From Eubacterium sp. (lineage in GTDB: Bacteria > Bacillota > Clostridia > Peptostreptococcales > Anaerovoracaceae), in assembly GCA_017533915.1 (NCBI GenBank), contig JAFWHX010000013.1, positions 1-64,000 of the forward strand: DNA of 64,000 nucleotides, read 5' to 3'. Shown piece by piece: positions 55,909 to 60,705 of the stretch. Under the pieces are notes generated by a model. The model saw only the letters and a list, made by a program, of their open reading frames with translations. It was not told the origin of the DNA and did no database searches. The number at the start of each line of letters is the position of its first letter. Within the stretch, counting starts at the first letter, position 1. A program made the translations under genes and the position numbers.

Positions 55909-57291
55909 TCAGATCTCATTTCCAGGGAACTGTGGAACTGTGGCAAGTCCCTTTGCGATGTCTTCATCTGTCGGGATCTCGTCAGTCATCTCTCCATCAT
56001 TGAACTTCTGATATGCGGTCATATCGAAGTATCCTGTTCCTGTGAGGCCGAATACTATGTTCTTCGCCTGCCCTGTCTCTCTGCACTTCACTGCTTCGTC
56101 GATGGCGGCTCTGATGGCGTGGCTCGATTCAGGTGCTGGCAGGATACCTTCGCATCTTGCGAATTCTTCAGCAGCTTCGAATACTTCGCTCTGTTCTGCT
56201 GTTCTTACTCTCATGAAGCCCTCATCGTAGAGCTCGGAGAGGATGCTGCTCATGCCGTGATATCTGAGTCCTCCGGCGTGGTTAGGCGATGGGATAAATC
56301 CATTGCCAAGTGTGTACATTTTAGCAAGTGGTGTGACTTCTCCGGTGTCGCAGAAGTCGTATACGTATTTCCCTCTTGTGAAGCTCGGGCATGATGCCGG
56401 CTCGACTCCAAGGAAGTCGTAGTCTGCTTCTCCGCGGAGCTTTTCGCCCATGAACGGAGCGATGAGTCCGCCGAAGTTCGATCCGCCTCCGCAGCAGCCG
56501 ATGATCAGATCAGGCTTGACGCCGTATTTATCGAGAGCTGTCTTTACTTCCTGTCCGATTATACTCTGGTGGAGCAGTACCTGATTGAGCACACTTCCGA
56601 GAACATATCTATATCCTTCTGTTTTTGTTGCGACTTCCACAGCCTCAGAAATTGCGCAGCCGAGGCTTCCGTTCGTTCCCGGGAACTCCTCAAGGATCTT
56701 CCTGCCGATCTCTGTCGTGTCTGACGGGGACGGTGTTACTGAAGCCCCATAAGTTCTCATTACTTCACGTCTGTATATTTTCTGCTCATATGATACCTTT
56801 ACCATGAACACCTTCAGGTCGAGCCCGAAATATGAACATGCCATGGAAAGGGCGGTACCCCACTGGCCTGCTCCGGTCTCAGTTGTGACTCCTTTCAGAC
56901 CCTGCTGCTTGGCATAGTAGGCCTGAGCAATGGCGGAGTTCAGCTTGTGGCTTCCGCTTGTATTATTGCCTTCGAATTTGTAGTAGATGTGTGCAGGCGT
57001 TCCGAGTCTGTCTTCGAGGCAGTACGCTCTTACGAGAGGTGATGGCCTGTACATCTTGTAGAAATCTCTGATGGCTTTAGGAATATGGATCAGCCTGTCT
57101 GTATTGTTCAGCTCCTGCTGTACGAGCTCTTTACAGAAGATAGGCTCCATTTCCTCTGCAGTCAGAGGCTGCAGTGTCCCCGGATTCAGCAGCGGCGCCG
57201 GCTTTATCGGCATGTCTGCTCTGACATTGTAATAATTCTCCGGGATCTCTTCCTCACTGAGGTAGATCTTGTAAGGGATCGTGTTTGACAT
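55909..57291 (-). CDS. TrpB2-like pyridoxal-phosphate enzyme (tryptophan synthase beta, orphan type)
   Basis: A 460-residue PLP enzyme of the long TrpB2 group. The start is ATG 57291 (MSNTIPYKIYLSEEEIPENYYN) with AAAGGAG upstream. The PLP lysine is in NNTSGSHKLNSAIAQAYYAK (about 96-115), followed by GVTTETGAGQWGTALSMAC and the phosphate loop IIGCCGGGSNFGG (near 250). TrpB2 proteins join indole and serine to tryptophan and often occur without TrpA. No other trp gene is present, and a tryptophan-type T-box precedes it, which together suggest indole salvage. Another PLP activity on an aromatic substrate cannot be excluded. Confidence 0.9.
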   Translation of the reverse strand: MSNTIPYKIYLSEEEIPENYYNVRADMPIKPAPLLNPGTLQPLTAEEMEPIFCKELVQQELNNTDRLIHIPKAIRDFYKMYRPSPLVRAYCLEDRLGTPAHIYYKFEGNNTSGSHKLNSAIAQAYYAKQQGLKGVTTETGAGQWGTALSMACSYFGLDLKVFMVKVSYEQKIYRREVMRTYGASVTPSPSDTTEIGRKILEEFPGTNGSLGCAISEAVEVATKTEGYRYVLGSVLNQVLLHQSIIGQEVKTALDKYGVKPDLIIGCCGGGSNFGGLIAPFMGEKLRGEADYDFLGVEPASCPSFTRGKYVYDFCDTGEVTPLAKMYTLGNGFIPSPNHAGGLRYHGMSSILSELYDEGFMRVRTAEQSEVFEAAEEFARCEGILPAPESSHAIRAAIDEAVKCRETGQAKNIVFGLTGTGYFDMTAYQKFNDGEMTDEIPTDEDIAKGLATVPQFPGNEI

Positions 57292-57352
57292 TTTGTTTTC
57301 TCCTTTCGGTTTCATCACATCAGGGGCTTTCCTTCTGCCTTGAACAGGCATC

Positions 57353-57580
57353 AAAAAAGCTCCCGTCCTTTGATGCTGGGACAGGAGCGTATCAGCTCTT
57401 GCGGTGCCACCCGGCTTGACATCATAAAGATGCCCGCTTACGCGCGTACCACTGGACGCGCTAGGAGTGCCTCAGAAGGCCAATTCAGTCCCCTTCTTCC
57501 ATACCGCTTTCCATCACCCGCGGCTCTCTGTCAAGTAGTTTAAGGAACCTACTTCCACTTCGTCATCGGCTTTGTGGTTA
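57353..57580 (-). promoter_or_regulatory. T-box riboswitch, tryptophan specifier, upstream of the TrpB2 gene
   Basis: Reading the minus strand: stem I elements (GATGACGAAGTGGAAGTAGG region, 57550-57570), AGAGAG at 57524-57529, specifier loop GAAT-TGG-CC with UGG at 57480-57482, the T-box sequence GGGTGGCACCGC at 57401-57412, and a terminator with 10-bp arms (57379-57388 and 57359-57368) followed by six T (57353-57358). UGG is the tryptophan codon, so uncharged tRNA-Trp should allow read-through. The specifier is placed by its GAAY neighbour, not by full folding. Confidence 0.92.
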
Positions 57581-57728: not shown

Positions 57729-60005
57729 TTATTTAGTGGTAAATTCTGAATATATCGCTCTTATCGCCGCCACATATCCGCTCTCATCTATTCCGATCAG
57801 CATGCTTATGCGCTCTGCGCCCTGGTCGATCATCTTCACGTTTATTCCGGCATTTGCCAGCGCCTCAAGCACTCGCACTCCGATGCCAGGCGTGCTCTTC
57901 ATCTTGCGGCCGATGACCGCTATGAGCGCAAGACCTTTCTCGACTTTGACAGAAGTGGCGCCGGTCTCTTTCTTGATCTCGTCAACGACTGCTCTGGCAT
58001 GACCTTCAAGCTCGCTCTGCTTAACGAATATATTCATCGAGTCTATTCCCGCGAGCGTATGCACTGCATTTATGCCGTTGTCAGCAAGCACGTTCATCAC
58101 AGCAGCTCTGAGGTCTATATTCTCATTCAGCCTCGGTTTCTCTACGATGATGCTTGCGTATCCCGGCTTTCCGGCCATTCCGCTTATATCGAGTATGCCG
58201 CTGTAATAGTCGGCATTCTTGACTATCATAGTGCCTTTCTCATCAGGCGACATTGTTGATCTGATGTGGATCGGGACACCGACCTCGCGGACCGGTGTTA
58301 CCGCGTCCTCATGTACGACCTCGGCGCCCATGAGTGAGAGCTCCCTTATCTCTTCATAGGAGACGACAGGAACGACCAGCGGATCTTTTACGACCTTCGG
58401 GTCTGCCATCATAAATCCCGGAACGTCAGTCCAGTTCTCATAAACATCGGCTCCGCAGGCGGCTGCGACGACAGCGCCGCTTATATCTGATCCTCCGCGC
58501 GGGAAAGTGACCTCCAGTCCATACGGGTTCATTCCATAGAATCCCGGGATCACAGCATGTTCATGCTTCTTCAGTTCCTCGCTCAACTTTTCATATGTCT
58601 TTTCTTTATCGAATTCTGCGTATTCATTAAAGCAGATCACCTGTGCAGCATCGATAAAATCATATCCCAGATATGCTGTAAGTATCCTGGCATTCAGATA
58701 CTCACCTCTTGACACAAGGTAATCCCTGTTGTGAGTCCCGACGTATCTTCCTTTTATCGCTTTGAACTCGCCTTCCAGATCCATATCGACGCCAAGTCCG
58801 TCTGCGATATCCTGGAATCTGTCGCGCACCTTCTTAAGTGCCCTGTCCAGCGCCCTGAGATCCTTGCTGCTCTCATATTTCTCATGAGCGTCGATCAGGA
58901 TATCGGTTATCTTCTTTTCCCGCGTGCTGAGCTTGCCCGGTGCAGATGCGACAACGTAGTTAAGTGCCTTGTCGGCTTTGATGATGTCAGCTGCCTGCCT
59001 GATCCTCTCAGCATCCGCAAGCGATGTCCCGCCGAATTTCGCAACTTTTGACTGTGCGTGTATCTCTTCAGCTGGCGTAAGGTCTTCTTCGCTGATCCTG
59101 CTTATGTCATATGGCGTGGACTGGTATACGAAATAGTTCAGCCAGTTGGAATACAGCAGATTGGCGCATGACCTCCACCTTACGACCGGCGGCCTGGTGT
59201 CGTCGTCGTCAGGGAAATAGTTATCTGGTACATGTGGATGGATCCCGGCTTTCTTATCACGTTCATACTCCTTCTGGAGCGTGTCGGCGTCGTATTCCGA
59301 GTGCCCGGTGATGAATATCTGGCGGTATTTCTCGGACTTTATGGCAAAGACTCCGGCTTTGTCGGAGCTTGCGATTATCTTCAGGTCCGGCACGGCTTCG
59401 ATGTCCTCCCTGAGTACTGTGGTGTTCCTTGAGTGCGGCACATAGAACTCATCATCAAAACCTCTGAAAAGCATTCCGCGGTTGTAATCGAGATGGTGCA
59501 GGAATACGCCTGAAAGTTTCTCCGGAAGCGGACGCTTTTTTATGCCATAGTGATAGTACAGGCCTGCCTGCGCGCCCCAGCAGATATGGAACGTAGAGTG
59601 GACATGTGTCTTGGTCCATTCCATGATCTCACAGAGCTCGTCCCAGTATTCCACTTCCTCGAACTCCATCTGCTCAACAGGTGCGCCGGTTATTATCATG
59701 CCGTCATAATAATTACCTTTCACGTCGTCGAAAGTCTTATAGAACGCAAGCATATGCTCTTCTGCTGTAACATGCGACTTATGCGTGCTCGTCTGGAGCA
59801 GATCGAGCTCGACCTGAAGCGGCGTGTTGCCGAGAAGCCTCGTGAGCTGTGTTTCTGTGTCTATCTTGGTCGGCATCAGATTAAGTATAAGGATCTGAAG
59901 CGGCCTTATATCCTGAGTCATGGCGCGGGTGTCCGTCATTACGAACACATTCTCATTTGTCAGCGTCTCCACTGCAGGAAGATCGTTAGGTACTTTTATC
60001 GGCAT
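57729..60005 (-). CDS. Homoserine O-acetyltransferase (MetA) fused to aspartate kinase
   Basis: One open frame of 758 codons. Residues 1-305 are a full MetA: catalytic Cys142 in [10 protein letters not shown], His235 and Glu237 in ITGHSEYD, and Glu111 in GAPVEQ, the residue that marks acetyl- rather than succinyl-CoA use. A short linker (about 306-318) leads to a full aspartate kinase (about 320-758): [49 protein letters not shown], and two C-terminal ACT domains with the [18 protein letters not shown] pattern. The chain thus carries the first step of the aspartate pathway and the committed step of its methionine branch. AAAGGGG lies upstream; the 154-bp leader shows two TATAAT-like boxes but no SAM riboswitch. 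No frameshift or stop separates the halves. Confidence 0.93.
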
Positions 60006-60171
60006 TTATCGATTCCCCTTTACATACACATATTATAGACAATTATACCATAATCTGCATAATTATAAAACGCGTTTTTCAGTTCCTTTCCATTGTCTGT
60101 TGCTATTGCCCGCCGCTGTGCATATAATCAAATCAGAAGGTATCCATTGCACATGATACATGGGAGGCAAA

Positions 60172-60651
60172 ATGGGAAACAGTATTGTTAAAAAGCTTGT
60201 CCTGATCCTGGCGCTGGCTCTGTCTGTCTCATCGTTCATGTGCGCATGCGGCGGAAACGGGAAAGACAGCAGCAGTACCGAACCGGAAGAGCCTGTACAG
60301 GAGATAACTCTGGAACAATACTTTGAGGAACACCCTGATGAGCTGCAGGGCTTAAAAGACGACATACAGAATGACAATGAAATGCGCGAATCGCTTAAGC
60401 ACATGGACTTTGACATATATGCCAAAGAGAATACTTTCTGTTTCGAGTACAAGTTCAAAGATACCTTCACAGGAGATGTTTCAGATAAGCTGAAAAAGAC
60501 TCTGAAGGGATCGCTCAGAAAAATGAAAAAAGAACAGACCGCGAGGATCGCTCCTCTCGAGAAGGCGTACGGCATAGACGGTATAGTGATCCATACTTCA
60601 TACCTGAACGGCGATGGAACTGTTCTGGCCGAAAGAAATTACAGCAAGTGA
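60172..60651 (+). CDS. Small secreted lipoprotein, DUF4854-like
   Basis: A 159-residue protein starting at ATG 60172 with GGGAGG upstream. A lipoprotein signal (KKLVLILALALSVSSFMCAC) ends with cysteines in a lipobox-like MCAC, followed by a serine/glutamate linker and a roughly 110-residue domain beginning ITLEQYFEEHPDELQGLKDDI, which resembles DUF4854 proteins of Clostridia. Function unknown; it probably sits on the outer face of the membrane. It is a single gene with a strong terminator. Confidence 0.75.
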   Translation: MGNSIVKKLVLILALALSVSSFMCACGGNGKDSSSTEPEEPVQEITLEQYFEEHPDELQGLKDDIQNDNEMRESLKHMDFDIYAKENTFCFEYKFKDTFTGDVSDKLKKTLKGSLRKMKKEQTARIAPLEKAYGIDGIVIHTSYLNGDGTVLAERNYSK

Positions 60652-60665
60652 TCCAGCCGATACAG

Positions 60666-60705
60666 AAAAAGCCATCCTGCAGATATCATACAGGATGGCT
60701 TTTTT
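60666..60705. terminator. Terminator between the lipoprotein gene and sbcC
   Basis: A perfect stem (AAAAGCCATCCTG with CAGGATGGCTTTT, 11-nt loop) ending in T6, between convergent genes. Confidence 0.9.

Follow-up and report, generated by a model that had tools for sequence, protein, structure and literature searches.

A conserved fusion of the acetyltransferase MetA with aspartate kinase in Anaerovoracaceae, a possible methionine-linked kinase isozyme

The analyzed window, a stretch of 64,000 nucleotides from Eubacterium sp. (Anaerovoracaceae), encodes a protein in which MetA is joined in frame to an aspartate kinase (AK) with an ACT region, and this MetA-AK fusion is real and conserved. Our favored reading, which we hold tentatively and at slightly less than even confidence, is that the fused kinase would be a methionine-linked AK isozyme outside the (probably lysine) feedback of the free AK and in 1:1 ratio with MetA, both predicted active sites being functional. 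One chain would thus carry the entry enzyme of the aspartate family, as a second, methionine-branch isozyme of AK, together with the homoserine O-acetyltransferase that commits homoserine to methionine. By escaping the feedback that acts on the free AK, the fused kinase would keep flux running via Asd and Hom to methionine during inhibition or repression of the free AK, with MetA drawing homoserine into the methionine branch. AK and MetA are separated by Asd and Hom, MetA standing three steps after AK. Since two reactions separate the two enzymes, the link would mainly provide their fixed 1:1 supply, and substrate channeling between pathway neighbors was rejected.

We infer both activities and the escape from feedback from sequence features, and we assume that the free AK is sensitive to lysine. 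The methionine role of the fusion is suggested largely by analogy with the gene neighbors and methionine-responsive leaders of a second, short class of MetA-AK fusions, described below; fusions of the window type are referred to as long. Counted in support of the favored reading are the conservation of the fusion, intact catalytic residues, the loss of ACT residues typical of free AKs, and purifying selection, as well as a separate AK, a homoserine dehydrogenase, and metY-type and MetH-like genes in the window genome. Counted against it are the partial match of the free AKs to the LysC lysine site, the location of the free AK after metK and a SAM riboswitch, the presence of metY beside only 1 of 13 long fusions (locus L222), the lack of any methionine-responsive leader found before long fusions, and the fast change of the fused AK. 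The coordinates of all features are collected in Table 1.

Table 1. Coordinates of the MetA-AK fusion gene, its parts, and related loci (window positions unless a locus is named).
Feature	Position	Strand	Remarks
MetA-AK fusion gene	57729..60005	-	758 codons and stop; ATG start; no internal stop
MetA (HTS) domain, residues 1-299	59109..60005	-	Pfam HTS and NCBIfam MetA_acetyl
MetA residue E111	59673-59675	-	in fusion gene
MetA residue C142	59580-59582	-	in fusion gene
MetA residue H235	59301-59303	-	in fusion gene
MetA residue E237	59295-59297	-	in fusion gene
Junction, residues 300-319	59049..59108	-	spacing of NWLNY to KFGG motifs
AK catalytic domain, residues 320-600	58206..59048	-	Pfam AA_kinase; K323, S354, T367, E435, R503, D507
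ACT region, residues 601-758	57732..58205	-	Pfam ACT_9/ACT_7; many free-AK residues changed
Ribosome-binding-site-like AAAGGGG, 5' of fusion ATG	60015..60021	-	read from sequence
Promoter-like site TTTATA-16-TATAAT	60042..60069	-	TG before second hexamer; consensus match only
TrpB-like gene	55909-57354	-
T-box leader	57374-57575	-	directly before TrpB-like gene
Small gene	60160-60651
Weak RefA9 sRNA match	60633-60702	+	Rfam
SAM riboswitch - metK - free AK, window genome	L197:6090-8990	-
Altered long-fusion locus	L022:533-2814	-
Altered long-fusion locus	L023:1480-3966	+
Leader - metY - MetA-AK - hom - asd	L230:3069-8479	-	short class
Leader - metY - MetA-AK - hom - asd	L232:3400-8650	+	short class
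Leader - metY - MetA-AK - hom - asd	L305:2917-8182	-	short class
SAM riboswitch - metA - AK - hom	L234:3116-6983	-	family f4, unfused
SAM riboswitch - metA - AK - hom	L235:4557-8408	+	family f4, unfused

A preliminary description of this gene, made from the sequence, had recognized a complete acetyl-type MetA and a full AK with ACT domains on one chain, and both parts were recovered by profile searches over an uninterrupted frame. The Pfam family HTS matches residues 2-299 of the fusion protein along its entire profile (positions 1-298 of 298; 462 bits, cut-off 27), and the NCBIfam model MetA_acetyl (NF047918) scores 490.6 bits, above its cut-off of 460.5. Residues E111, C142, H235, and E237 lie at the positions that had been named for them; we take Cys142, His235, and Glu237 to be catalytic and Glu111 to mark the use of acetyl-CoA. 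Among 46 long fusions, 19 short fusions, and 81 separate MetAs, no variation was seen at K47, E111, C142, W143, K163, S192, R193, H235, E237, and R249. The closest solved structures, PDB 2h2w, 2ghr, and 2vdj, were matched over the full length of the MetA part and are presumably MetA of Thermotoga maritima and Bacillus cereus; unlike the fusion protein, they are not joined to AK.

The AK and ACT part of the fusion protein spans residues 320-757, with Pfam matches to AA_kinase (residues 320-583; 119.8 bits, cut-off 24.9), ACT_9 (695-755), and ACT_7 (688-737). The general model asp_kinases (TIGR00657) is passed with 262.6 bits against a cut-off of 208.7. For the nearest AK equivalog model, PRK09034, the fusion scores 431.7, which is 2.3 bits under the cut-off of 434, and the free AK scores 545.2. 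The homoserine dehydrogenase domain PF00742 was absent from the Pfam scan of the fusion protein, which therefore differs in architecture from ThrA and MetL. The NCBIfam matches of the protein include models for AK/homoserine dehydrogenase and AK/diaminopimelate decarboxylase fusions, and none for a MetA/AK fusion was seen among the 25 of 27 matches listed.

The unbroken frame had been raised in the preliminary description as a point to check against sequencing error. Of 296 genomes drawn from the family, 58, in 13 genus codes, carry a full-length, unbroken long fusion, and the 44 other long-fusion proteins compared are 54-92% identical to the window protein. An assembly or sequencing artifact, or a chance join, is thereby ruled out for practical purposes; no point was found in favor of an artifact, and we give that explanation next to no weight. 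The residue counts given here refer to 46 distinct long-fusion sequences from 46 of the 58 genomes, excluding the altered loci L022 and L023; the sequence of L067 is identical to that of G565, for which it stands, and was thus not counted as a further case.

Within the genus of the window, the long fusion is intact in 14 of 17 genomes. MetA is separate in one exception (G011); altered copies were observed in G008, as two overlapping frames, and in G012, as a frame of 829 codons in which the AK aligns in two pieces. Outside the genus, irregular copies occur in G587 (821 codons, AK partly aligned) and G462 (one stop within the match), and G616 has a partial copy. Among the matches listed, many other genomes of the family have MetA and AK at different places, and among the score-sorted matches listed for a draw of 398 genomes from the phylum the long form was seen only in G000 and G014, the two genomes of the window genus included in that draw.

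The gene content of the window genome provides most of the remaining steps of the proposed route. The fusion is the sole HTS-type MetA found by the genome search, and the best match to MetX scored 18.9 bits against a cut-off of 500, which was likewise reached in none of 14 control genomes, so that this result carries little weight. One homoserine dehydrogenase (Hom), a separate frame of 335 aa, was found, and two strong metY-type matches and one MetH-like gene were identified. Besides the fusion, the search found one further AK, the free AK of 438 aa at C7.

The catalytic residues of the fused kinase are intact. The equivalents of K8, S39, T45, E119, R198, and D202 (E. coli LysC numbering), which we take to be the AK active-site residues, show no change in any of the 46 long fusions and are kept in all 81 free AKs, save for S39 (80/81). 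Between the window and G005, the dN/dS ratio is 0.016 for MetA, 0.062 for the kinase domain, and 0.025 for the ACT region, all rough values given dS above 1; for the kinase it lies between 0.048 and 0.14 in those four of the five close pairs in which dS is unsaturated. In all five close pairs, dN is lower for ACT than for the kinase. As judged from these substitution patterns, both halves of the fusion are under purifying selection.

Sequence change is nevertheless faster in the fused AK than in its free counterpart from the same genomes. Mean identity, taken over 78 pairs from 13 genomes (G006 was omitted, its free AK belonging to another clade), is 80% for MetA, 55% for the fused kinase, and 41% for the fused ACT region, compared with 70% for the kinase and 62% for the ACT region of the free AK. 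The fused copy is the faster-changing one in 76 of the 78 pairs for the kinase and in 67 for ACT, and kinase columns conserved at 95% or more number 89 of 281 in free AKs and 66 of 281 in the fused set. Such a difference could mean relaxed constraint, and it fits, together with the split, altered, or absent fusion in 3 of the 17 genus genomes, the explanation that the AK half is dead or decaying and persists as a dimerization or regulatory appendage. We consider this very unlikely, since the catalytic residues are identical in 46 of 46 sequences and the kinase dN/dS is low in four of five close pairs; furthermore, the short class keeps the kinase while lacking the ACT region.

Fused and free AKs also differ in the ACT region, in which 38 of 153 columns are conserved at 95% or more among free AKs and 9 of 153 among the fused ones. 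G323, F324, D340, and their neighbors are, on our assumption, the lysine-site residues of ACT1 in E. coli LysC. At the G323 position, G is found in 77/81 free and 5/46 fused AKs; at F324, F is found in 75/81 and 5/46, respectively; and at D340, E is found in 80/81 and 5/46. The window fusion has D631, L632, and V648 at these three positions and thus departs from the lysine site. The free AKs themselves agree with it in part (G323, F324, and partly M318 and T344) and differ from it at other positions, for example S345 (mostly G) and E346 (mostly I). The closest solved AK by sequence, PDB 3tvi (361.7 bits over residues 7-442 of the AK part), presumably the aspartokinase of Clostridium acetobutylicum, has no MetA and, unlike the fusion, keeps the G-F and F-E-H-x-P-S-G-V-D positions. 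Judging from these alignments, the fused AK no longer has the site conserved in free AKs.

The long fusions also have ACT preferences of their own, namely R633 (41/46), N649 (30/46), L651 (33/46), and H728 (37/46), and such partial preferences would fit a new effector site. From the sequence comparisons, the fused ACT region seems to be preserved inside each lineage while diverging from one lineage to the next, a pattern that would also be compatible with a functional site for a changing effector. G000 and G005, a close pair, share for instance 94.7% ACT identity in the fused copy and 88.8% in the free one. These observations lend some weight to a different reading, in which ACT senses a new effector (methionine, SAM, or another compound) and governs both the kinase and, by way of the short junction, MetA. 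Pfam ACT models still recognize this region in the window gene, amino-acid-changing differences are fewer in ACT than in the kinase for each of the five close pairs, the junction length is nearly fixed, and, with no leader found for long fusions, control could lie in the protein. We nonetheless regard this reading as unlikely, though deserving consideration: short fusions lack the ACT region altogether, the fused ACT is the least alike part at wider distances, and few of its columns are conserved. The earlier suggestion that the ACT domains could control both activities is not supported in the form in which it had been put, given that the short class ends before ACT and that the long ACT has lost many residues nearly invariant in free AKs; purifying selection on the ACT region was counted as keeping it alive, and putative allosteric control of MetA by ACT is possible.

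The setting of the free AK complicates the favored reading. The free AK of the window genome lies 153 nt downstream of metK and behind a SAM riboswitch. Of 31 family loci, 21 have metK on the same strand and within 300 nt upstream of the free AK; two of the other ten hold too little upstream DNA to tell. Of 18 free-AK loci searched with a SAM model, 13 have a riboswitch before metK; the window-genome locus L197, one of the 13, had itself helped to build the model, and one of the 18 loci comes from family f10. Between metK and the free AK of the window genome, no terminator-like site and one promoter-like site were found. If the two genes form one transcript, SAM would lower the free AK, and the metK linkage and riboswitch indicate that the free AK is more than a lysine isozyme.

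The fused AK could therefore also be the kinase that stays on at high SAM. Taken further, it would be a constitutive housekeeping AK for lysine and threonine when SAM shuts the metK-AK unit, with the MetA link serving expression. The SAM riboswitch ahead of metK and the free AK, the missing terminator-like site behind metK, and the promoter-like site about 30 nt ahead of a fusion with no leader found are in keeping with this explanation. We hold it to be distinctly unlikely: the promoter-like site between metK and the free AK means that the latter need not depend on the riboswitch, and in the short class the kinase linked to methionine is itself placed behind a methionine-responsive leader.

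No SAM riboswitch was found ahead of the window fusion, in agreement with the preliminary description; neither Rfam nor SAM and methionine T-box models built in this work detected a SAM riboswitch or T-box there. Rfam searches ahead of the fusion found no leader in 11 long-fusion loci at the gathering score and none in 13 at E 0.01. Eight riboswitches went into the SAM model, which gave no match in 55 long-fusion loci, as against the 13 of 18 free-AK loci above. The methionine T-box model, which recovered both held-out control loci (L306 and L307), gave only weak matches in 56 long-fusion sources, all to T-boxes before TrpB-like genes. These sets of loci overlap and represent, by our count, 46 genomes. 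On the basis of these searches, a hidden riboswitch or T-box before the long fusion was rejected.

The promoter-like site ahead of the window fusion is one of five found on either strand of the region 59900-60200, where 1.2 would be expected; transcription from it would give a leader of about 30 nt, leaving no room for a riboswitch or T-box of these kinds. A shared upstream DNA motif was also sought and was not convincing: the top 7-mers in 43 regions are promoter-like, with a count of 10, where 20 shuffles reached 8 at most.

Short fusions, with frames of 593-630 codons and an AK that ends after the catalytic domain, total 19 in four families: six in families f2 and f10, 12 in the 61 genomes of family f42, and one in G913 of family f119. 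No ACT match was found by Pfam in either of the two short fusions scanned (P0001 and the L303 protein). The spacing between the NWLNY and KFGG motifs is 19 residues in all 19 short fusions, and 31 (34 sequences), 33 (11), or 32 (1) residues in the 46 long ones, making the short-class junction 12-14 residues shorter. The window gene lies outside the short class, having ACT, the long-type junction, and no leader found.

The neighborhoods of short fusions, in which genes were identified through representatives of their clusters, point to methionine synthesis. The metY gene is located directly 5' of the fusion in 14 of 19 loci, and asd is found downstream in five, together with hom in L230, L232, and L305 and alone in L301 and L303. 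The gene order is metY - MetA-AK - asd in L303 and metY - MetA-AK - hom - asd in L230, the latter covering the path from aspartate to homocysteine; the hom product of L230 is 330 aa long and has no ACT match. According to Rfam, the 19 leaders comprise 16 T-boxes, five of them below the gathering score with E <1e-14, and two SAM riboswitches; the nineteenth fusion, L304, has no leader match, its contig ending about 290 nt ahead of the fusion. The specifier, read at what we take to be its place within the T-box leader, is AUG (methionine) in 16 of 16 T-boxes. Since a methionine T-box or SAM riboswitch precedes 18 of 19 short fusions, the class is, by leader prediction, under methionine or SAM control. 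Behind such a leader, the short fusion frequently has MetY and in some cases Hom and Asd as companions; in its fullest form, this would be a self-contained aspartate-to-homocysteine operon.

Unfused associations of the two genes were also observed. In G053 (family f7), metA adjoins an ACT-less AK. In two genomes of family f4 (G815 and G780), a SAM riboswitch is followed by metA, then by an AK of another class, and then by hom, constituting a third link of metA with AK.

The fusion probably arose more than once. Both AK kinase-domain trees unite the long fusions (support 97) and place the short fusions together with the neighbor gene of G053 (support 99 and 100). The nearest kin of the long-class AKs differ by tree, being Lachnospiraceae AKs (support 97) in one and unresolved in the other. 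The MetA trees likewise unite the long fusions (support 97 and 100), which lie there among unfused MetAs from their own family and from others. A single clade of long and short fusions is rejected by the MetA tree (p 3e-10; thinned, 44 rows) and is not rejected by the AK tree (p 0.43; thinned, 64 rows). At least two joins are thus favored by the MetA tree and the junction lengths, while the AK tree permits a common AK ancestor and does not decide on a single origin of both classes. A single clade of the short fusions by themselves is likewise rejected by the MetA tree (p 2e-4; thinned, 44 rows), so that this class may itself mix fusions, splits, or exchanges.

The groups for these clade tests were chosen after the first trees had been seen, and all trees are thinned and quick. 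The first AK tree held 85 of 135 sequences, with 33 of 40 free AKs (loci L097-L146), 16 of 46 long fusions, and the fragment L022 omitted. The second included 16 of the 46 long fusions and five of those 40 free AKs, with four long-branch free AKs omitted, and the MetA trees, likewise thinned, contained 93 and 72 MetAs.

The two classes can be combined in a broader proposal of at least two fusions with opposite control, the short one having an RNA leader and no ACT, and the long one having no leader and an ACT region rebuilt for a non-lysine effector; this is possible, and we put it forward with some doubt. An ACT-less kinase with RNA control set against an ACT-containing one without an RNA leader would make the exchange of protein for RNA feedback directly testable.

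No MetA-AK fusion was found in the titles and abstract openings returned by searches of open-access papers, in agreement with the preliminary description, which had known of none. AK fusions have been described with homoserine dehydrogenase in E. coli and with diaminopimelate decarboxylase in Xylella fastidiosa (PMC555942, in the part of the text available). The fusion resembles E. coli ThrA and MetL in combining AK and another aspartate-family enzyme in a single polypeptide; its partner, however, is MetA, acting three steps later, instead of homoserine dehydrogenase, and its AK is C-terminal, whereas that of ThrA is N-terminal (PMC555942, same part). E. coli similarly has separate AK isozymes for different end products, its AK II being repressed by methionine (PMC10464499, available excerpt). 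The X. fastidiosa protein likewise joins AK to a branch enzyme that is not its pathway neighbor, although it serves the lysine branch and has another partner (PMC555942, as above). MetA-AK can be viewed as a new partner pair within the known branch-specific AK fusions; those covered by the accessible text of PMC555942 serve the threonine or lysine branch, and MetA-AK would add methionine as a third. Two classes with apparently separate origins would suggest that fusion of AK to a branch enzyme is a recurrent route to branch-specific isozymes. A natural ACT-less AK fused to MetA would also be of practical interest for methionine production.

In Clostridioides difficile, a metY-metA operon is located behind a SAM-I riboswitch (PMC11477304, available portion), an order and control resembling those of some short fusions. 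That portion of the account mentions no AK fusion and treats metK as stand-alone (PMC11477304), whereas AK follows metK in many genomes of the family of the window.

Two further RNA matches were observed around the window fusion. Between the fusion and the next gene, directly before that TrpB-like gene and pointing towards it, there is a T-box leader (68.9 bits, E 4.7e-14, under the Rfam gathering score of 93) with the specifier UGG (Trp), by reading of the sequence. On the other side, a weak Rfam match to the RefA9 sRNA (35.8 bits, gathering score 49) ends in a hairpin that may be the terminator of the small gene 60160-60651.
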